Source: Betaproteobacteria bacterium HGW-Betaproteobacteria-12 (GTDB lineage: Bacteria; Pseudomonadota; Gammaproteobacteria; Burkholderiales; Rhodocyclaceae). Taken from it: a DNA stretch of 38,139 nt. Each line of letters begins with the position of its first letter. The stretch's first letter is position 1. Below, in pieces: positions 17,072-32,101 of the stretch. A program made the translations under genes and the position numbers. The notes under the pieces were generated by a model. The model ran no database searches. It had not been told where the DNA came from and saw only the letters and a program-made list of their open reading frames with translations. Location: positions 1-38,139 of the forward strand of contig PHCU01000060.1 in the NCBI GenBank assembly GCA_002842345.1, read 5' to 3'.

Positions 17072-19126
17072 TTACTGGAACTTGTAGATGTAACGAATTC
17101 CGGCAAACGTGGCGTTCTGGGACGGCGAGGCTAGGACCATGGTGCCGTCTGGACCGGCGCAGTTGTTGTAGCAGTAGGGCGTGCCGCCAGCCGAGGTCCA
17201 GCTCCAGTCGTCGGTGTGCCAACGGTCGTGGATCAGGTCGAAGCGCAGGTCGGCATTCTTGCGCAGGGCGTAAGTGCCCTTCAGCTTGAGCCGCGTCAGC
17301 TTGTTCTCGATGTCCGGAACTGGCCGGAAGTTGGCGGTGAAGGCGGTGATGTTCAGGTTCTGGTCATACTTGGTAACGCTGCGCATCCACTCCAGGTCGG
17401 CACTGAAAGTGAACTTCGGACCCACCTTGCCAAGCAGGCCGAGGCCGAGCGACTTGGTCACTTCTTCGAGGTCGACCTGGTTGGCTAGCTGACCAGCCGC
17501 CGCCGGCGCGACATCCTGATTCGACGAAATTTCCTCGCGCGATAGCCAGGCACTGAGTTTCCAGTCGTCGTTGAAGATGTAACTGGCATCGATCGAGGTC
17601 TGCCAGGCCTCGCCTTCCTTCAGGCCCCAGGGCTGGCTCTTGTCGTACTTGTCGTCGGATCCTTCGACGGCAAACTGCAGCGACAGCCGTTCGGCCGGTT
17701 CCCAGTCGACCTTGGCACGGAGCTTGTCGCGCTTGCGGTCGGCAATGTGCATCGGCGAGATGAGGCTTTCGTTGGCATCGCCGGTGGTGGCCGGGACGAT
17801 GTTGGAGCTCTTGCGATCGCTGCGCAGATAGGCGATGGAGCCGTTCAGGTTGTCATCGAAGGAGCGCCGCAACTGCAGGCGGTAGGTGGTTTCCTCGAGG
17901 TCCTTCGCGTAGGGCACCAGCCACGTGCCGCGCTTGGGAGTCGAGCGGTCCTGCGTGAAATGATCGACGCCGGCAGTCACGGCGAAGTTCAGCGGCAGGC
18001 GGTAGGTGCCTTCCACCTTCCCGGAAAGCTTCTTGAAGGAGTGCGGCGTGTTGAAGCCGAGATTGCTGTTGATGAACTGATGTACTGGCGTCTTGTCGTC
18101 GATATCGTGATAGCGCAGATTGGCGTTCAGCGACAGCTTGGGCAGCGGCCGCGAACTCAGACCCAACTGGACGAGCTTGGTATCGACGCGCCCGTCCAGA
18201 CTGGTCGGGCTACCCGCCAGCGCTGTGACAAGGCCGTTGGTGGCGAAGGATTCATCCTGCGTCGCGCGGCTGTAGGAGATCTTGAACGTCCCACGGGTGC
18301 TTGGCGTGAAGTTGTAGCCGCCATCGAGGAAGAGCTGGTGTGCCTGGTTGCTGAGCGGTTGCGACAGATTGGTGATGGCCGCATTGCCATTGGTCGAATA
18401 GCGCACGACGCCGCCGTTGTCCTGGTCGTACCAGCTGCCGTAGTAGCCGCCCGACAGTTGCAGCATCTTGCCGCTGTACTGCAGCACGGTCTCGAACTGG
18501 CGGGTCGTGCTGTCGATCGGTTCGACCAGGAAGCGTGGCGAGTCCCCGCCCCACTGGCGGGTACCCGTCTTGTCCTCGTTCTTGAAATCGATCTTGAGGT
18601 CGAGGCCGGGCATCAGGCTCTTGTAGAAGCCGGCGTTGATCATCTCGCGCAGCGTGCCCAGGGATTTCTCCCGTTTCGGCAAGGCATTGACGCCGGCGCC
18701 GCTGGCATTCAGGCGCGACGAGCCGATGCCCTGCAGACCGGTAGAGAAAGTAAAGGGATTGTCGCGCGGCGTCCGGTTGTATTCGAGGAAACCGCCGATA
18801 TTGCCCTGGCGCAGGACTTCGACGCGGATTTCCCGGTTGTCGAGGCCGAAGTTCCGGGCGTCCAGCTTGTACCAGGTACCTGTCGCGTCATCGCGCTTGA
18901 CGATGTCGGCGTCGAACAGGCCGTAGGCCTGGGCGTCGCGCATCCCGTCGTAGATGCCCATCTGGTGACGGTCGTCACCCCAGACATTGCCGACGCCGAG
19001 CGAGATGCTGCTCTCCGGCTTGATCAGTTCGGCAATCTCGGCATCCTGCGCCAGCGCCGGAGCGAAAGCCAGCATCAGGGCTGCCGACAGCGTGGTCAGC
19101 CTGAACGTATTTTTCATCGTGTTCAT
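17072..19126 (-). CDS. MtrB/PioB-family outer-membrane beta-barrel
   Basis: A 684-aa protein with a signal peptide (about 1-26, ALAQ-DA) and long alternating beta-strand pattern ending in YIYKFQ, as expected for an outer-membrane barrel. Segments such as FLEYNRTPRDNPFTFSTGLQ and the paired aromatic strands resemble MtrB/PioB/MtoB proteins, which sheathe a decahaem cytochrome across the outer membrane. It begins 22 bases after the decahaem gene, the conserved gene order. The N-terminal CxxC of Shewanella MtrB is absent; the only cysteines are near the C-terminus (CYNNC). No surface cytochrome of MtrC type or lipoprotein partner is encoded in the cluster. Confidence 0.9.
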   Translation of the reverse strand: MNTMKNTFRLTTLSAALMLAFAPALAQDAEIAELIKPESSISLGVGNVWGDDRHQMGIYDGMRDAQAYGLFDADIVKRDDATGTWYKLDARNFGLDNREIRVEVLRQGNIGGFLEYNRTPRDNPFTFSTGLQGIGSSRLNASGAGVNALPKREKSLGTLREMINAGFYKSLMPGLDLKIDFKNEDKTGTRQWGGDSPRFLVEPIDSTTRQFETVLQYSGKMLQLSGGYYGSWYDQDNGGVVRYSTNGNAAITNLSQPLSNQAHQLFLDGGYNFTPSTRGTFKISYSRATQDESFATNGLVTALAGSPTSLDGRVDTKLVQLGLSSRPLPKLSLNANLRYHDIDDKTPVHQFINSNLGFNTPHSFKKLSGKVEGTYRLPLNFAVTAGVDHFTQDRSTPKRGTWLVPYAKDLEETTYRLQLRRSFDDNLNGSIAYLRSDRKSSNIVPATTGDANESLISPMHIADRKRDKLRAKVDWEPAERLSLQFAVEGSDDKYDKSQPWGLKEGEAWQTSIDASYIFNDDWKLSAWLSREEISSNQDVAPAAAGQLANQVDLEEVTKSLGLGLLGKVGPKFTFSADLEWMRSVTKYDQNLNITAFTANFRPVPDIENKLTRLKLKGTYALRKNADLRFDLIHDRWHTDDWSWTSAGGTPYCYNNCAGPDGTMVLASPSQNATFAGIRYIYKFQ

Positions 19127-19148
19127 GATTAATCATTCCCCCTAATGA

Positions 19149-20117
19149 TCAGCGACGGAAGCGACCGGATTGCGCCGATTCTTCGGTGCTGTTGCCACCG
19201 TGAATATTGGTGTGGCAATTCAGACAGCCACGACCGACCGTGCCAATAATGTCTCGACCAGTCACGTTGCCAGCGTTCGCCGGCAAGGCGCCGACCTGGC
19301 TGCGGTGGTGATTGGTGCCCGAATGGCAGTCCTGGCAGAGGAAGGGGGGACGGCTCTTTAGCAGGTTGGCGATGGTCGTGCCGTGCGGCTGGTGACAGAT
19401 CGAGCAGTCTTCGGAGACCGGTTCATGGTTGTGGATGAACGGACCGCGCTTCTCCATGTGGCAGGTGTAGCAGGTCTCGTTGGTGGTCGCCTTGATCAGT
19501 TGCTTCGGATTATCGCCGTGCACGTTGTGGCAGGACGAGCAGCTCATCTTGCCTTCGACGATCGGGTGATGCGACGGTTTGTTGACCTGGTTGCGCTGCT
19601 CCTTGTGGCAGGTGAAGCAGGTTTCGGTCTGCGTCTGGCGGTCGCGCACCTTGTCCTTGGCGGCGTGCACCTGATGGCAGGAGCTGCAGGTGACGTCCTG
19701 GCTACCGTGGGCGCTGTGTTGCCAGCCGATCCGGTTGCCACCCTGGTGACAGGTCAGACAGGAACCGTTGCGGGCTTCGACGGTGGTGTCGGATTTCTTG
19801 CCATACCAGCGCTCGGGTTTCGGCGGCTTGCCGCTGCCCTTGTGATTGACGTGCTTCTCGCTTTCGCCGTGGCAGTCGGTACAGGTCGGCGTGCGACCGT
19901 CGGCGTTGGTGCCGTGCTTGGTCTTGCCGATCGCCAGCACGGACGGCTTGAGGTCCAGCATCGTCGGTTTGGAATCATCAGCTTCGTCGTGACACCCGGT
20001 ACATTTGGCGTCGCCCTTGAGGAGCAGATCCTTCGGCGCCTCTTTGGCCAGTGCCTGGCCGGCCCCCAGCATGGCGACACACGCCGTCATGGCCAACAAC
20101 TGTCGTAAGCCTCTCAT
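19149..20117 (-). CDS. MtrA/DmsE-family periplasmic decahaem cytochrome c
   Basis: A 322-aa protein with a signal peptide (about 1-24) and exactly ten CxxCH motifs: CTGCH, CTDCH, CLTCH, CSSCH, CFTCH, CSSCH, CYTCH, CSICH, CQDCH and CLNCH. Length and spacing fit the MtrA/MtoA/PioA/DmsE family, a molecular wire inserted into the MtrB-type barrel. The ATG at 20117 has GGGGGTG five bases upstream; an ATG at 20129 lacks such a site and only adds four residues. The direction of electron flow (iron oxidation as in Mto/Pio, or reduction as in Mtr) cannot be decided from this gene alone. Confidence 0.93.
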   Translation of the reverse strand: MRGLRQLLAMTACVAMLGAGQALAKEAPKDLLLKGDAKCTGCHDEADDSKPTMLDLKPSVLAIGKTKHGTNADGRTPTCTDCHGESEKHVNHKGSGKPPKPERWYGKKSDTTVEARNGSCLTCHQGGNRIGWQHSAHGSQDVTCSSCHQVHAAKDKVRDRQTQTETCFTCHKEQRNQVNKPSHHPIVEGKMSCSSCHNVHGDNPKQLIKATTNETCYTCHMEKRGPFIHNHEPVSEDCSICHQPHGTTIANLLKSRPPFLCQDCHSGTNHHRSQVGALPANAGNVTGRDIIGTVGRGCLNCHTNIHGGNSTEESAQSGRFRR

Positions 20118-20144
20118 ATACACCCCCATTGAAAACCCGTTATG

Positions 20145-25181: not shown

Positions 25182-25600
25182 AAACGCTGTTGCTCGCTCT
25201 ACTGCTGCTCCCCATCGCGGCCATCGGCGATGATTCCCGGCAACTGGTCAAGCTGCCGCCAGCGGCGCAGGAGTCGCTGCGGCAGGAGATGCTCGACAAC
25301 CTGGTCGCGGTCAATGAAGTGCTGACGCTGATGGCCGAAGGCAAGGTCAAGGAAGCCGGCGAGGCGGCCGAAACCAAGCTCGGCATGGCAGCCATGGGCA
25401 AGCACCGCGGCAAGCCGGTGGATGCCCGGCCCGGTCCGCACATGCCGCCGGCCATGCACGGCATCGGCATGGATGGCCACCGGGCGGTCAGCGAATTCGC
25501 CGCCGTCGCCAAGACCGGCGACCGTGACAAAGCGCTGGCCCTGTTGCCCAATCTCACTTCGGCCTGTGTCGGCTGTCACTTTTCCTATCGCACCCGATGA
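25178..25600 (+). CDS. Small monohaem cytochrome c (c'/c556-like)
   Basis: A 140-aa secreted protein with a signal peptide (about 1-17) and a single haem motif CVGCH (C130, C133, H134) at the extreme C-terminus. That is where cytochromes c' and c556 of the four-helix type place it, and the rest looks helical. The segment [23 protein letters not shown] precedes it. It overlaps ubiA upstream and ubiD downstream by ATGA in both cases. Its role is unknown; placement between two ubiquinone genes is unusual and may reflect only co-expression with respiration. Confidence 0.85.
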
Positions 25601-27072
25601 AATATCACGACCTGCGCGACTTCCTGTCGCAACTGGAAAAGACCGGCGAGCTGAAGCGCGTCGGCGTCGCCGTCGATACCCGTCTGGAAATGACCGAGAT
25701 CTGCGACCGCGTATTGCGCGCGGCAGGCCCGGCGATCCTCTTCGAGCAGCCGACGACCGGGGCGACCCGGCACACCATCCCGGTGCTGGCCAACCTGTTC
25801 GGCACGCCGAAACGGGTGGCACTGGGCATGGGCGAGGAGTCGGTGCAGGCGCTGCGCGAAGTCGGCAAGCTGCTGGCCTACCTGAAGGAGCCGGAGCCAC
25901 CGAAAGGCCTGAAGGACGCCTGGGACAAGCTGCCGATCCTGAAGCAGGTGCTCAACATGGCGCCGAAGACGGTGTCGTCGGCGCCGTGCCAGGAAATCGT
26001 CTGGGAAGGGAAGGATGTCGATCTGAGCCGCCTGCCGATCCAGCACTGTTGGCCGGGCGACGTTGCGCCGCTGATCACCTGGGGGCTGGTGGTCACCCGC
26101 GGGCCGCACAAGAGTCGGCAGAACCTCGGCATCTACCGCCAGCAGGTGCTCGGCCCGAACAAGGTGATCATGCGCTGGCTGGCGCATCGCGGTGGGGCCC
26201 TCGATTTTCGCGAGCACCAGCTGGCCAATCCCGGCCAGCCGTTCCCGGTGGCCGTGGTGCTCGGCTGCGATCCGGCGACCATCCTCGGCGCCGTGACCCC
26301 GGTGCCCGATTCGTTGTCGGAATACCAGTTCGCCGGCCTGTTGCGCGGCGGCAAGACCGAACTGGTCAAATGCCTCGGCTCGACCTTGCAGGTGCCGGCC
26401 TCGGCCGAAATCGTCCTCGAAGGCGTCATCCATCCCGGCGAGATGGCGCTCGAAGGGCCGTACGGCGACCACACCGGCTACTACAACGAGCAGGCCGAGT
26501 TCCCGGTGTTCACCATCGAGCGCATGACCATGCGCAAGAATCCGATCTACCACAGCACCTACACCGGCAAGCCGCCCGACGAGCCGGCGGTATTGGGCGT
26601 CGCGCTCAATGAAGTGTTCGTGCCGCTGCTGCAGAAGCAGTATCCGGAAATCGTCGATTTCTATCTGCCGCCAGAGGGCTGCTCGTACCGGATGGCCATC
26701 GTCAGCATCAAGAAACAGTATCCCGGCCAAGCCAAGCGCATCATGTTCGGCATCTGGAGCTTCCTGCGCCAGTTCATGTACACCAAGACGATCATCGTCG
26801 TCGACGACGACATCGACATCCGCGACTGGAAGGAAGTGGTCTGGGCGATGACGACGCGCATGGACGCGACGCGCGATACGACGCTGGTGGACAACACGCC
26901 GATCGACTACCTCGACTTCGCCAGCCCGGTGGCCGGCCTCGGCTCGAAGATGGGGCTGGATGCGACCAACAAGTGGCCGGGCGAGACGAGCCGCGAATGG
27001 GGGCGGCCTATCGTCATGGACGCCGACGTCAAGAAACGGGTCGATAGCCTGTGGCAGGAACTAGGTCTTTAG
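25597..27072 (+). CDS. ubiD: 4-hydroxy-3-polyprenylbenzoate decarboxylase
   Basis: UbiD removes the carboxyl group from the prenylated ring in ubiquinone synthesis using prenylated FMN made by UbiX. The 491-aa protein has the family N-terminus ([22 protein letters not shown]), the [20 protein letters not shown] segment, [12 protein letters not shown] with catalytic acidic residues, and the [18 protein letters not shown] region. Length is normal. It is last in the ubiA operon. No ubiX gene is in the window. Confidence 0.96.
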
Positions 27073-27092: not shown

Positions 27093-27122
27093 TTGACCCG
27101 CGGCGGGCGGCCTTGCGAGAAT
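27093..27122 (+). promoter_or_regulatory. Candidate sigma-70 promoter of the riboswitch transcript
   Basis: TTGACC (27093-27098, 5 of 6) and GAGAAT (27117-27122, 4 of 6) are spaced by 18 bases. Transcription would start at about 27129, immediately before the cobalamin aptamer at 27133. The gap after ubiD contains a GC-rich imperfect hairpin (27105-27128) but no clear terminator. Confidence 0.5.
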
Positions 27123-27132
27123 CCGCCCTCCT

Positions 27133-27295
27133 ATCGGCATCGAGATACGGAACACGGTGCGAATCCGTGGCGGGCCCGCCGCTGTAACCGGGGACGAAGA
27201 CTGCACGGTCGCCAGACCAGCCACTTGCGGGGCATACCACGCAGGGAAGGCGCAGCGCTTCGGCTGATCCGGAAGCCAGAAGACGAATCGATACC
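27133..27295 (+). ncRNA. Cobalamin (B12) riboswitch aptamer
   Basis: Conserved pieces appear in order: the CGGTGCGAATCCGT stem-loop (about 27155-27168), CCGCCGCTGTAACCGGGGA (about 27177-27195), GCCAGACCAGCCACT, GGGAAGGCGC, and the B12-box-like GGAAGCCAGAAGAC (27271-27284). An outer helix can close between ATCGA (near 27139) and TCGAT (near 27288). It is followed by an antiterminator/terminator arrangement and a precursor peptide gene rather than a B12 transport or synthesis gene. Such riboswitches turn genes off when cobalamin is plentiful. Confidence 0.93.
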
Positions 27296-27300
27296 CATCA

Positions 27301-27320
27301 GGAGCCAAGGCAAGGGCTCC
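27301..27320 (+). promoter_or_regulatory. Possible antiterminator hairpin
   Basis: GGAGCC (27301-27306) can pair with GGCTCC (27315-27320), the 5' part of the terminator stem, leaving an 8-base loop. The two structures are mutually exclusive, which would give a transcription-control switch downstream of the aptamer. Confidence 0.45.
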
Positions 27321-27371
27321 GGCTGACCGCATGCGCAAGCGTGCCGTCAGCCGGAGCCCTTTTTGTTTTTG
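27313..27371 (+). terminator. Intrinsic terminator of the cobalamin riboswitch
   Basis: A perfect 15-bp stem (27313-27327 with 27346-27360), one C-C mismatch, then six further pairs (GCATGC/GCGTGC with one wobble) capped by a GCAA tetraloop, followed by TTTTTGTTTTT. It ends 20 bases before the precursor peptide ATG, so it can switch the operon at the level of transcription. Confidence 0.9.
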
Positions 27372-27390
27372 CATTCCCGAGGAGTGGAAC

Positions 27391-27546
27391 ATGACCCAAC
27401 CCGTGACTTCAAGCGTCAAAACCCCGCAACCCGCTGAAACCCAGGCCGCCCCGGTCGCCCCGACCATCGCCGTGCGCAAGAGCTGCAATCCGGAAGGCAT
27501 GGGCCTGTCGCACTATGTACTGATGGACAAGAAGGCGGCCAAATGA
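27391..27546 (+). CDS. cbpA: Radical-SAM-modified peptide precursor, CbpA type
   Basis: A 51-residue peptide with a Shine-Dalgarno (GAGGAG) 6 bases before ATG 27391. The N-terminal half is a low-complexity P/A/T/Q/V leader-like region. The C-terminal part has RKSCNPEGMGLSHYVLMDKK, with one cysteine (C32) and candidate modification residues. The stop overlaps the start of the radical SAM gene (ATGA). I recall a TIGRFAMs/NCBI pair named CbpA/CbpB for short peptides and radical SAM enzymes behind cobalamin riboswitches in Rhodocyclales, and this fits, but I could not search. The product structure and function are not known to me. Confidence 0.85.
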   Translation: MTQPVTSSVKTPQPAETQAAPVAPTIAVRKSCNPEGMGLSHYVLMDKKAAK

Positions 27547-28913
27547 CCGCAGCGCTTGCCGAGGGAGCGCTGCGCGAGCCGCAGTTCCGGCCAGTGGACA
27601 TCGGTCACGCGGTCTACGCCGCCGTGACCGATCCGGAGACCGCCTTCTGGGCCCTGGTCGACAAGAGCAAGGTCGGCGAGGTGCTCGATCCGGCGACGCT
27701 CGCCGCCTATCGCGAAAAGGCCGAGGGTTTCCGCCAGGAACTGCATGCCCTGCGTTTCGAACTGAAGCCCTCCGGTGTCTACTTGAACCCGACCGAGCGC
27801 TGCAATCTCAACTGCACCTACTGCTACCTGCCCGATAGCCAGCGCAGCGGCGGCAGCCACATGCCGATCGGCACACTGCTGGCCTCGCTGGGCAAACTGC
27901 GCGACTACTTCCGCTCGGTCATGCCGGAGGGCCGCAAGCCGCGCGCCATCTTCCACGGTGCCGAGCCGCTGATGAATCAGGCCGCCGTCTTCGCGGCGAT
28001 CGACGTCTTTGGCGACGACTTCACCTTCGGGCTGCAGACCAACGGTACGCTGCTCGACGATGCGGCGCTCGATTTCCTGACCGCACGCAACGTCAGCATC
28101 GGCCTGTCGCTCGACGGCCCGCTGGCCGCGATCACCGACGCGACGCGGCTGACCTGGGGCGGCAAGAGCGTGCACGACAAGGTGCTGCGGACGATGGAGA
28201 AGCTGCGCGGCTACGGTTCGTGGAGCGTCATCACCACCTGTACCACCGAAAACCTGCCCTACCTGACCGACATGGTTGAGCTGTTTCATGCCCATGAGGT
28301 GCCGACCTGCATGCTCAACACCGTGCGCTGCACGCTGCCCGGGGCGCGCGGCGTCAAGCCGGCCGACGGCGCCATGGCCAAGGCCTTCTTCGCCGCCCTG
28401 GACCGCAGCCACGCGCTCTACCGGGAGACCGGCCGCAAGCTGATGGTCGCCAACTTCGCCAACATCCTGATCGGCATCCTGGCCCCGACGGCGCGCCGCC
28501 TGATGTGCGACATCTCGCCCTGCGGCGGCGGTCGGGCCTTCTTCGCGCTGGCGGCGGATGGCGGCCTCTATCCGTGCAGCGAGTTCATCGGCCTGCCCGA
28601 TTTCCGCGGCGGCAACCTGCTGGTCGATGGTGTCGAGGCGGCCCTGGCTTCGCCGGCCTTCCAGACCGTCACGACGCGCGATGTCGACAAATTCAGTCCC
28701 TGCGGCGATTGCGCGATCCGCCATTTCTGCGGCTCGCCCTGTCCGGCCGAAGCCTTCGAGATGAACGGCGGCATGGACAAGATCGGTGCCTTCTGCGAGT
28801 TCTACAAGGAACAGGTCAATTACGCCCTGCGTCTGATCGCCGACGGCAAGGCCGACGACTATCTGTGGGACGGCTGGGACGAGGGTACCGAGACCGTGTT
28901 TGCGGCGGCCTGA
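27543..28913 (+). CDS. cbpB: Peptide-modifying radical SAM/SPASM enzyme, CbpB type
   Basis: A 456-aa enzyme. The radical SAM cluster motif is CNLNCTYC (C87, C91, C94). The C-terminal half has a SPASM-type auxiliary-cluster pattern: C322 and C327, YPC at C345, then C-x2-C-x5-C-x3-C (C387, C390, C396, C400) and C418. SPASM proteins mostly modify ribosomal peptides, forming thioether, C-C or related crosslinks. An N-terminal extension of about 75 residues may hold a peptide-recognition region. It overlaps cbpA by ATGA and shares the cobalamin riboswitch. A vitamin-B12-binding domain is not visible, so B12 is the regulator and not obviously the cofactor. Confidence 0.92.
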   Translation: MTAALAEGALREPQFRPVDIGHAVYAAVTDPETAFWALVDKSKVGEVLDPATLAAYREKAEGFRQELHALRFELKPSGVYLNPTERCNLNCTYCYLPDSQRSGGSHMPIGTLLASLGKLRDYFRSVMPEGRKPRAIFHGAEPLMNQAAVFAAIDVFGDDFTFGLQTNGTLLDDAALDFLTARNVSIGLSLDGPLAAITDATRLTWGGKSVHDKVLRTMEKLRGYGSWSVITTCTTENLPYLTDMVELFHAHEVPTCMLNTVRCTLPGARGVKPADGAMAKAFFAALDRSHALYRETGRKLMVANFANILIGILAPTARRLMCDISPCGGGRAFFALAADGGLYPCSEFIGLPDFRGGNLLVDGVEAALASPAFQTVTTRDVDKFSPCGDCAIRHFCGSPCPAEAFEMNGGMDKIGAFCEFYKEQVNYALRLIADGKADDYLWDGWDEGTETVFAAA

Positions 28914-28930: not shown

Positions 28931-31900
28931 TCAGGCGTCTTCTTGCGCCGCGGCGGCGGCTACCGCTGCCGCGCTGTCGCGGCGCAGCCATTTCAGCACG
29001 GTGGCGAACAGCCGCTCGGGATCGACCGGCTTGGTGATGAAGTCGTCCATGCCGGCGTCCAGGCAGCGCGCCCGGTCCTCGGCGAAAGCGTTGGCGGTCA
29101 TCGCCAGGATCGGCAGGCGCTGGCCGATGGCGCGGATCTGCCGGGTGGCTTCCAGGCCGTCCATTTTGGGCATCTGCATGTCCATCAGGATCAGGTCGTA
29201 GTCCCGTTCGCGTGCCATGGCCAGCGCCTGCGCGCCGTCCTCGGCACTGTCGACGGCGATGCCGACATCCTCGAACAGGCTGAGTGCCACCTCGCGATTG
29301 ACCGGCTCGTCCTCGGCCAGCAGCAGGCGGCAGTGGACGAAGTCGCGGGCCAGTACCGTTTCCGCTGCTTCACCATGGCTGGCAACGGGCACCGTCGGCC
29401 GGGCGCTGGTGCCTTTTTTCAGGCGGGCGGTGAACCAGAAGGTGCTGCCGACGCCGGGCTGGCTGTGCAGCCCGGTGTCGCCGCCCATGGCCTGGGCCAG
29501 GCGGCGGCTGATGACCAGGCCCAGGCCGCTGCCGCCGAAACGCCGGCTGATGGTGTTGTCGGCCTGTTCGAAGGCGGCGAACAGCCGGCCCTGCGTTGCC
29601 GCGTCGATGCCGACGCCGGTATCCTCGACCGCGAAACGGACCAGCAGCGTCTCGTCGTCCTCCTGTTCATGACGCACGCGCAGTGTGACGCTGCCGTGTT
29701 CGGTGAATTTCAGCGCATTGCCGGCGAAATTGAGCAAGGCCTGCTGCAGCCGGGTCGGGTCGCCGAGCAGCGGAACCGGCTGCGGTTCGCCGTCGAGGCG
29801 CAACTGCAGACCCTTGTCCTGGGCCTTGTCCTGCAGCATCGAGGCGACGTTGGCGAGGATGCTGGCGGTATTGACCTCGGCGACTTCCAGTTCGAACTTG
29901 CCGGCCTCGATCTTCGACAGGTCGAGGATGGCGTTGATCACTTCGAGCAGGTGGTGGCCGGCCACCTCGATCTTGTTCAGGCGTTCGCTCTGCTCGGGCG
30001 GCAGGCCGGCGCGGCGGATCAGGTGGGCCATGCCGGTGATGGCGCCAAGCGGTGTGCGGATTTCGTGCGACATGTTGGCGAGGAAGCGGCTCTTCGACTG
30101 GTTGGCCGCCTCGGCCGCCGCCTTGGCTTGCTGCAGCGCCTGTTCGGCCTCCTTGCGCCGGCTGATGTCGCTGATGAAGGTGATCAGTCGTTCCGGCTGC
30201 TCGGCGCAACCCGGTCGGTGATACAGGCTGATCTCGACCGGAATGCGCCGTCCGTCGCGCGCCTTCTGCACGCTCTCGAACTGCCGCGAGCCGTCGCGCC
30301 GGGCCTGGGCGACGATCTCGGCCAGGCGTTCAGGACCGACCTCGGCGTCGATGTCGGGAACACGCAGCGCCAGCATTTCCTCCGGCGTGTAGCCGAGCAT
30401 TTCGGCGGCGTGACGATTGACGTAGGTGAGCCGCCCGTCGACCGGATCGACCCAGTGGATGCCGATGCCGACGCTGTCCATGGCGAATTGCGTCTCGAGC
30501 AGCTGGCGATGGGTCTTTTCCAGTTGCGCCGTACGTTCGCCGACCTTTTCCTCGAGCCGGTCGCGGTGCCCGGCCAGTTCGTCGAGCGCCCGGCGCAGCG
30601 GGGTGATGTCGTGGGCGACGCCGAGGACGCCGATCAGCGTGCCATCGGGCAGGCACATCGGCGTCTTGGTCGTCGAGAACAGGCCGCGATAGCCGCCGCG
30701 TGCGAAGCGCAGCCATTCTTCATTGCTGCTCGGCCCGCCGGCCGCCATCGCCGCCTGGTCGTGGTGGCGGAAGGAGTCGGCGAGTTCGGCGTCGACGAAG
30801 TCGTAGTCGGTCTTGCCGACGATCTCCGCCTCGCTGGCACCGAAGAACTCCTCGAAGCGCGGGTTGCAGGCGAGATAGACGCCCTCCTTGTCCTTCAGCC
30901 AGATCAGGTCGGGCATCGTGGCGACCAGCGTATGCAGGTGCGTCTGCTGGCGCAGCAGTTCGGCCATCGTCTCGTTGAGCAGCGCCGCCAGGCTGCCCAG
31001 CTCGTTGTCCGGCAGCGCCCCGGTCAGCGGCTGGAAATGCCCGGCCCGGGCCGAATCGACGGCACCCATCAGCTGGCTGAGCGGGGCGGTGACCTGGCGG
31101 CGCAGGAAAATCAGGCCGCCGGCCATCACCAGCAGCGAAACCGCGGCCAGGGCCAGGAAGCCGGCCCCGAGCAGGGGGATGGCTTGGCTGCCGCCGGCGC
31201 TCAGGTTGCGGGCGAAGGCGAAGCTGACCGCCTGGCCGTCGGCCAGGATGCTCTGTGCCGTGGCGTAGGCAGTATCGTCCTGCAGGCCGTGTCGGGGGGG
31301 CGGGAACCAGTGCAGGGCTCCGGTCACGCCCAGCGCCTGGCTGGCCGGCGGCAGGGTATCGACGGTCGGCATGCCGGGCGACTGGAGGAGCACGCCGCCG
31401 GCCTCGAGGGCGAACGGGATGCCGGCTTCGGCGGCAACGCGATCGACCAGTTTCTGGTCAAGACAGCGGCCCAGCGACAGGTGTCCGGTGTCGCCGTTGC
31501 TGCCGCGGATCGGCAGGTCGCGGACGATGGCCAGGCCGGGCAGCGTCCGGCAGGGGGCGAAATGCGCCGGCAGACCGTGCGTCGTCGGGCGGATCAGGCC
31601 GGGCAGGTCGGCGACGGCGGCGAACGGCGACAGCGTGCCGGTGCTGGCGAACAGCTGCGCCCCCTCGCCGCTGCGTTGCGACCAGTACAGGGTGCGGCCG
31701 TTGGCATAGCCGGCGATCGGGCCGTGCGTGCCGGTGACGACGATCCAGTCGACGCCGGCGGTCCGACCGCTTTCGCCGAGCATGACGGCGAGGTCTTCGG
31801 CCGGCGCATCGAAAATGTCGGGGTTGCCCTTGGTCAGCGCGAAATAGCCGTGGAACAGGTTGAGCGTCGCCTGCAGCTTGGCGGTGTCGGCCAGGGTGTC

Positions 31901-32101
31901 GCCGATCATCGCCAGTTCGTCGCTGCGGTGGGTCAGCACGGCGTCCAGGCGCTGCATCGCCTGGTTCAGTTGCTGCGCGCTCTCCTTGGCCAAGGCGTGC
32001 TGGCGCAGGGCGCTGTAGATACCGCCGGCGACGACCAGGACGGCGATCGTTGCGGCAAACCAGAAAAGGAGCAGGCGCTGGGCCAGCGACAGGCGGGGCA
32101 T
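28931..32101 (-). CDS. Hybrid sensor histidine kinase with periplasmic sensor
   Basis: A 1056-aa membrane protein: helix near 8-30, a periplasmic sensor of about 280 residues, a second helix near 313-335, HAMP (about 335-385), PAS (about 390-505, MPDLIWLKDKEGVYLACNP), a coiled stretch, PAS (about 535-660), HisKA with H679 in NMSHEIRTP, HATPase (FAGNALKFTEHG, DTGVGI, GGSGLGL), and a C-terminal receiver with D974 in LILMDMQMP. No Hpt domain or output regulator is adjacent. It begins one base after the stop of a periplasmic binding protein gene, suggesting ligand sensing through that protein. Confidence 0.92.
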   Translation of the reverse strand: MPRLSLAQRLLLFWFAATIAVLVVAGGIYSALRQHALAKESAQQLNQAMQRLDAVLTHRSDELAMIGDTLADTAKLQATLNLFHGYFALTKGNPDIFDAPAEDLAVMLGESGRTAGVDWIVVTGTHGPIAGYANGRTLYWSQRSGEGAQLFASTGTLSPFAAVADLPGLIRPTTHGLPAHFAPCRTLPGLAIVRDLPIRGSNGDTGHLSLGRCLDQKLVDRVAAEAGIPFALEAGGVLLQSPGMPTVDTLPPASQALGVTGALHWFPPPRHGLQDDTAYATAQSILADGQAVSFAFARNLSAGGSQAIPLLGAGFLALAAVSLLVMAGGLIFLRRQVTAPLSQLMGAVDSARAGHFQPLTGALPDNELGSLAALLNETMAELLRQQTHLHTLVATMPDLIWLKDKEGVYLACNPRFEEFFGASEAEIVGKTDYDFVDAELADSFRHHDQAAMAAGGPSSNEEWLRFARGGYRGLFSTTKTPMCLPDGTLIGVLGVAHDITPLRRALDELAGHRDRLEEKVGERTAQLEKTHRQLLETQFAMDSVGIGIHWVDPVDGRLTYVNRHAAEMLGYTPEEMLALRVPDIDAEVGPERLAEIVAQARRDGSRQFESVQKARDGRRIPVEISLYHRPGCAEQPERLITFISDISRRKEAEQALQQAKAAAEAANQSKSRFLANMSHEIRTPLGAITGMAHLIRRAGLPPEQSERLNKIEVAGHHLLEVINAILDLSKIEAGKFELEVAEVNTASILANVASMLQDKAQDKGLQLRLDGEPQPVPLLGDPTRLQQALLNFAGNALKFTEHGSVTLRVRHEQEDDETLLVRFAVEDTGVGIDAATQGRLFAAFEQADNTISRRFGGSGLGLVISRRLAQAMGGDTGLHSQPGVGSTFWFTARLKKGTSARPTVPVASHGEAAETVLARDFVHCRLLLAEDEPVNREVALSLFEDVGIAVDSAEDGAQALAMARERDYDLILMDMQMPKMDGLEATRQIRAIGQRLPILAMTANAFAEDRARCLDAGMDDFITKPVDPERLFATVLKWLRRDSAAAVAAAAAQEDA

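Follow-up and report, generated by a model that had tools for sequence, protein, structure and literature searches.

The known roles of RiPPs are mainly those of antibiotic, signal, redox cofactor and, in one case, copper carrier. Methanobactin is a metal-binding example: it is ribosomally made, modified and exported, and transport genes accompany it. SPASM enzymes, for their part, take part in making peptide-derived redox cofactors, PQQ among them. Cobalamin riboswitches, in turn, often control B12-independent replacement enzymes. Here, we analyzed a stretch of DNA of 38,139 nt (the window) in which a cobalamin riboswitch precedes cbpA, encoding a 51-aa precursor peptide, and cbpB, encoding a radical SAM/SPASM enzyme. 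The two products are ordinary members of NCBIfam families TIGR04164 (CbpA, 54.5 bits, cut-off 35, model positions 1-25 of 25) and TIGR04163 (CbpB, 728.1 bits, cut-off 375, model positions 2-428 of 428), both above the curated cut-offs, which confirms the identification given in a preliminary description of this DNA. Listings from PMC text searches contained no paper on the chemistry or role of TIGR04163 or TIGR04164, or on a cobalamin-riboswitch RiPP. Relative to the named families, the new points are a tie to B12 operons in several phyla, carriers without a ring-synthesis marker, tandem cores and a CteB-like enzyme. In contrast to methanobactin with its transport genes, none recurs beside cbpAB among the neighbours listed. 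CobW is a GTPase serving CobNST, whereas CbpA is a short peptide tied to no single chelatase. The kind of work that we suggest for CbpA, cobalt supply for B12, is that of the cobalt chaperone CobW (PMC7689651).

The preliminary description had proposed promoter-like boxes, a B12 aptamer, a very strong terminator, a 51-aa peptide and an overlapping enzyme. All but the first were borne out (Table 1): the RF00174 match covers model positions 47-167 of 189 and exceeds the gathering threshold of 31.5, the T-tract TTTTTGTTTTT lies directly 3' of the terminator hairpin, and the ATG of cbpB overlaps the cbpA stop codon. Of the promoter-like boxes, one site was recovered, and it is weak. A tblastn search with B12 genes as queries found none of them within the window. 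Elsewhere in the window (17072-20129), an MtrB/PioB-type outer-membrane porin gene stands together with a multihaem cytochrome gene, a pairing that resembles extracellular electron transfer conduits.

Table 1. Features of the cbpAB locus and its immediate neighbours (window positions).
Feature	Position	Strand	Basis or remark
ubiD gene	25597-27072		5' neighbour of the riboswitch-cbpAB unit
Weak sigma-70-like promoter site	27093-27122	+	TTGACC-18-GAGAAT, 9/12 consensus matches, 0.3 expected in shuffles
Predicted aptamer closing stem	27128-27304	+	CTCCT 27128-27132 pairs with AGGAG 27300-27304
Cobalamin riboswitch aptamer core	27149-27284	+	RF00174, 78.6 bits, E 6.7e-18
Predicted antiterminator hairpin	27301-27320	+	GGAGCC 27301-27306 with GGCTCC 27315-27320
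Intrinsic terminator hairpin and T-tract	27312-27370	+	-46.7 kcal/mol by direct fold
Ribosome-binding site AGGAG	27380-27384	+	6 nt 5' of cbpA start, read off the sequence
cbpA, 51-aa precursor peptide	27391-27546	+	Translation; TIGR04164 E 5.5e-15, residues 25-49
Conserved CbpA core, residues 25-49	27463-27537	+	Cys32 at 27484-27486
cbpB, radical SAM/SPASM enzyme, 456 aa	27543-28913	+	Translation; TIGR04163 E 2.8e-219
CbpB N-terminal domain, residues 11-72	27573-27758	+	Strand-strand-strand-helix-helix order
CNLNCTYC, radical SAM cluster motif, CbpB residues 87-94	27801-27824	+	Three Cys invariant (44 sequences)
CbpB SPASM region, C322 to C418	28506-28796	+	PF13186 22.0 bits, cut-off 21.5; TIGR04085 47.8 bits, cut-off 27
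Hybrid histidine kinase gene	28931-32101		3' neighbour, converging on the cbpAB unit

The leader fold beats 200 of 200 shuffles (z -5.0). The terminator hairpin was absent from a simple consensus scan and was recovered by direct folding. Folding 27122-27372, or any of several shorter transcripts, gives the AGGAG/CTCCT closing stem; when the longer segment 27093-27372 is folded, the minimum-energy structure lacks it. Transcripts that end at 27326 to 27350 fold with GGAGCC paired to GGCTCC instead of the closing stem, and the same GGCTCC is also required by the terminator hairpin. These pairings are mutually exclusive, and we therefore predict a transcriptional OFF switch, that is, a riboswitch that would halt transcription when B12 is plentiful, with the OFF direction inferred from the modelled folds.

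The riboswitch recurs in relatives. Among the named loci, which were fetched with the CbpB profile and are the best 80 of at least 385, a cobalamin riboswitch lies directly 5' of cbpAB in 69; it does so as well in all 10 phylum-sample loci and in 29 of 29 family loci tested (of 39 matches), the three sets of loci overlapping. The pair thus does occur beside riboswitches in other genomes, a point that the preliminary description had suggested checking. In five further named loci (L073, L075, L076, L082 and L119, the link being least certain in L119), the riboswitch lies farther 5' on the same strand and heads a series of cob, btu or cobalt-transport genes that continues into cbpAB. Neither the Rfam model nor our model R1, which was built mostly from cbpAB leaders, finds a cobalamin riboswitch in L056, L096, L097, L098 or L114; L074 has just 168 bases of 5' DNA, and no riboswitch was seen in that stretch. 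The plasmid locus L008 has no Rfam cobalamin riboswitch, and together with the five loci just named it makes up all the Rfam misses among the cbpB loci run. Of 70 leaders (the window and the 69 loci from the best 80 of at least 385), 57 have a hairpin below -20 kcal/mol with a T-rich stretch after it in the interval separating the aptamer from cbpA, compared with 12 of 140 dinucleotide shuffles; ten leaders have no such hairpin at all (L055, L065, L072, L103, L107, L109, L113, L117, L124 and L127). As a prediction, the earlier proposal that the peptide is made under B12 starvation agrees with a riboswitch in most relatives and a recurrent terminator.

All 80 named loci (the best 80 of at least 385, representing 11 phyla) have a CbpA core directly 5' of cbpB. 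Across these loci and the window (81 of 81 sequences), the Arg at Cys-3, the Cys, Gly+4, Gly+6, Leu+7, Ser+8 and His+9 are invariant, giving the pattern R..C...G.GLSH, and Tyr+10 and Leu+12 are present in 80 of the same 81. Core codons vary, with Leu+7 encoded by all six codons; since seven core residues are fixed while synonymous codons differ, CbpA is selected as a protein. The rest of the precursor is loose: L096 has merely about six residues ahead of the core, and two Sedimenticola precursors (L090 and L092) carry two complete cores in tandem, the second of which was used in the residue counts. With the non-core part loose and the core fixed, it is the core, and not a leader, that is under selection. 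The invariant Arg, Cys and His are possible ligands.

CbpB scores above cut-off with both PF04055 and PF13186, and an alignment of 44 sequences shows no substitution at C322, C327, C345, C387, C390, C396, C400 or C418. Encoded in overlap with its putative substrate, CbpB is predicted to modify CbpA, and its chemistry is probably the formation of a thioether ring from the invariant CbpA Cys. The CbpB model resembles CteB, the SCIFF thioether maturase (PDB 5wgg); CbpB nevertheless scores just 98.5 bits on the SCIFF model TIGR03974 (cut-off 425), and SCIFF is a six-cysteine peptide, unlike CbpA. The score with the PapB ranthipeptide maturase model NF047865 is 112.7 bits, below the cut-off of 340. 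Rows for CteB and TigE start at residues 11 and 9, and the N-terminal part, possibly a peptide-recognition domain of the winged-helix, precursor-binding kind (RiPP recognition element), is barely tested there. Two other chemistries were considered and rejected. Formylglycine formation as in the anaerobic sulfatase maturase (anSME, PDB 4k38; CbpB 95.4 bits on TIGR03942, cut-off 349.45) conflicts with the CSEF of CbpB at the place of CDFY in anSME, where Ser replaces the Asp directly after the SPASM Cys that we take to be a functional mark of anSME. A Cys-to-Asp/Glu thioether, as made by PapB and QhpD, was rejected as the sole reading: Cys+3 is Asp or Glu in 63 of 81 sequences (the window and the best 80 of at least 385 loci), and otherwise Asn, Lys, Thr, Arg or others. 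Because Cys+3 is variable, the thioether acceptor may instead lie in G-x-G-L-S.

The surroundings of cbpAB in relatives point to B12. Neighbours were called by tblastn with confirmed genes and by a codon-usage caller after a first ORF caller proved poor in GC-rich DNA. Recurrent neighbours with NCBIfam or Pfam matches are CobB, CobQ, CobD, CobM, CbiG-CobJ, CbiET, CbiD, CbiL, CobO (a neighbour in 11 of the best 80 of at least 385 loci) and CobT, together with CbiB, CobU, CobS, BluB, BtuB, CbiX and a CbiM-type permease; precorrin-8X methylmutase (CbiC) also recurs, under equivalog cut-offs, as does CobC at 148.9 bits (cut-off 162.9). Searches with tblastn placed two or more genes for B12 synthesis or uptake close to cbpB in 22 of the 80 named loci (best 80 of at least 385), in records titled Pseudomonadota, Myxococcota, Planctomycetota, Verrucomicrobiota and Chloroflexota, and in 12 of the 28 loci with 8 kb on each side. 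Placed on the CbpB tree, the B12-neighbour label needs at least seven changes, a count made on 38 of the 80 loci (the 22 positives of any flank and 16 negatives with 8 kb on each side) that favours positives. The order cobM-cbpA-cbpB-cbiX is found in L073, L075, L076 and L082, and cbpB-cbiX in L119, so that the cobaltochelatase gene cbiX directly follows cbpB in five loci. No exporter or protease recurs beside cbpAB among the neighbours listed, ten of which were checked with Pfam.

Several other neighbours were observed. A 190-aa predicted protein with no Pfam or strong NCBIfam match (L082:5866-6435) recurs beside cobO in B12 clusters (L055, L068, L070, L071, L075 and L082). Genes of the CutA1-type divalent ion tolerance family lie 3' of cbpB in two loci (L066:11482-11832 and L077:12324-12626). 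Four actinobacterial loci (L105, L107, L113 and L122) have a second radical SAM/SPASM gene about 0.8 kb after cbpB, that of L105 with a SEC-C motif.

Genomes with cbpB are enriched in B12 makers. In its own family, cbpB is found in 37 of 395 genomes, patchily inside genera, one of the 37 (G559) having a partial match below cut-off. CbiC, our ring-synthesis marker, is present in 30 of the 37 family genomes with cbpB vs 98 of the 358 without (odds ratio 11.4, p 2e-10, kinship ignored). Leaving out the window's own genus, the figures are 26 of 31 and 92 of 342; that genus by itself shows a weak contrast (4 of 6 vs 6 of 16). In the phylum sample, CbiC is present in 9 of 11 genomes with cbpB vs 140 of 387 without (p 0.003, kinship ignored), and it is present in 38 of the 45 cbpB genomes outside the family, which include ten from that sample. 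CbiC is missing from 14 of 82 cbpB genomes, among them three in one contig each (G781, G419 and G449) and the window's genome. Cobalt insertion into a new ring can thus not be the whole role of the pair. CobS was rejected as a mark of these CbiC-negative carriers, being present in 12 of the 14 and also in 14 of 18 family genomes that lack both cbpB and CbiC.

The window's genome (95% complete, 6.9% contaminated), in which CbiC and CbiD were not found, looks, from its gene content, like that of a cell that finishes salvaged corrinoid. On contig C50 (L128:6862-13646), a riboswitch precedes bluB, cbiB, cobD, a btuF-like gene and one for another periplasmic binding protein, while cobQ lies beside the bluB-cbiB-cobD group and is transcribed divergently. 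On contig C11 (L129:16355-18123), another cobalamin riboswitch precedes a ZrgA-family metal-uptake gene, which is followed by a small gene without a Pfam match, a DUF2149 gene and a gene running off the contig.

Rows of the CbpB tree are titled with 11 phyla, several of which do not form single clades, and identity to the window CbpB is about 60% at the far end; this distribution is compatible with transfer as a cassette. Among the 79 viral loci listed, the best match is 26% identical and none is CbpB. One plasmid record carries cbpAB, Methylovirgula pHY1, where the pair adjoins pqqADE and a Crp/Fnr gene (L008:9831-14780).

Taken together, we propose the following account. When B12 is plentiful, the riboswitch terminator would stop transcription of cbpAB. 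Under B12 shortage, cbpA and cbpB would be made, and CbpB would modify CbpA, probably by closing a thioether ring from the invariant Cys. Modified CbpA would likely remain intracellular and act as a small cobalt or corrinoid carrier, thereby helping to restore the B12 supply. As a whole, this account is our preferred reading, although we hold it at somewhat less than an even chance. CbpA likely aids the building or recovery of B12, since its relatives lie in B12-making operons in several phyla, and B12 control, B12-operon placement in several branches, enrichment in makers and a near-fixed core jointly argue for a role in cobalt or corrinoid supply. The cobalt or corrinoid theme of the preliminary description is consistent with the B12 gene neighbours, the cbiX adjacency and the CbiC enrichment. 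Because no exporter, protease or receptor recurs among the neighbours listed, the peptide presumably works inside the cell. Handling of cobalt or corrinoid fits because the carriers of the pair include makers with either chelatase as well as corrinoid finishers, and a carrier is further suggested by the second riboswitch before a ZrgA-family metal-uptake gene in the window's genome and by the CteB-like model of CbpB. Counting against a carrier are the lack of a riboswitch in six named loci (five with enough DNA) and in L008, and the 58 of 80 loci (best 80 of at least 385) with at most one B12 gene, many of these loci being short. In addition, His and Cys are commonplace in functional peptides.

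The nearest rival is that modified CbpA acts as a peptide-derived cofactor, giving redox or catalytic help in a step common to B12 synthesis and salvage, such as the reduction of cob(II) to cob(I) that precedes adenosylation. PQQ and its like offer a precedent, the recurrent cobO neighbour agrees with such a step, and a helper of this kind would suit both types of makers and the salvagers; however, no constant redox partner gene stands among the neighbours listed, and we consider this reading rather unlikely.

CbpA could also serve the early chelatase CbiX as its dedicated cobalt chaperone, in the way that CobW serves the late chelatase CobNST. The five loci with cbiX directly after cbpB favour this, as does CbiD in 30 of 30 CbiC-positive family genomes with cbpB; yet CbiD is also present in 39 of 43 family makers without cbpB (43 of the 98 such genomes were used), and early versus late pathway was accordingly rejected as a discriminator within the family. 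CbiD is found in 30 of the 45 distinct cbpB genomes counted (32 of 47 with repeats). CobN is above cut-off in 8 of 52 distinct cbpB genomes (8 of 54 with repeats), three of them (G791, G793 and G796) without CbiD, and a CobN-like protein below cut-off is found in the window's genome (G000) and in G781, G449 and G592. As a partner, a CobN-like protein was itself rejected: at E <=1e-30 it is present in 9 of 30 family genomes with cbpB and CbiC, 17 of 32 with CbiC only and 6 of 18 with neither, and is thus unlinked to cbpB in the family. The CbiC-negative carriers and the CobN users argue that CbpA is not simply a partner of CbiX and that the pair belongs to B12 supply generally; a dedicated CbiX chaperone is improbable.

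A third alternative is that modified CbpA replaces a B12-dependent function during B12 shortage, for which the earlier suggestion was a B12-dependent redox step. Control by a cobalamin riboswitch is what replacement enzymes often show, and in Aromatoleum evansii (L048:11456-14815) the genes converging on cbpB encode a member of the MttB methyltransferase family and a BCCT transporter, with homologues of both at the same position in L051, the MttB-family one belonging to the same cluster. Against this, the pair is enriched in B12-making genomes and sits inside B12-making operons, and we disfavour replacement, giving it little credence. Secretion of CbpA as a cobaltophore or corrinophore, one form of the scavenging first envisaged, is the least probable reading of all: the tandem cores look like excisable units and BtuB is a neighbour in L055, L075, L076 and L082, but no exporter or protease recurs by cbpAB among the neighbours listed and the CbpA sequence has no signal-like hydrophobic stretch.

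Returning to the intracellular carrier, a broader and more tentative possibility is that CbpA is the first ribosomal enzyme-modified peptide to serve B12 metabolism inside the cell, a thioether-ringed mini-chaperone that links uptake, ring synthesis and finishing by carrying cobalt or corrinoid and that has passed between phyla with its own B12 switch. If true, this would bring a peptide into one of the best-studied cofactor pathways, and the supply of cobalt and corrinoid to B12 metabolism, an old question, would become experimentally testable.
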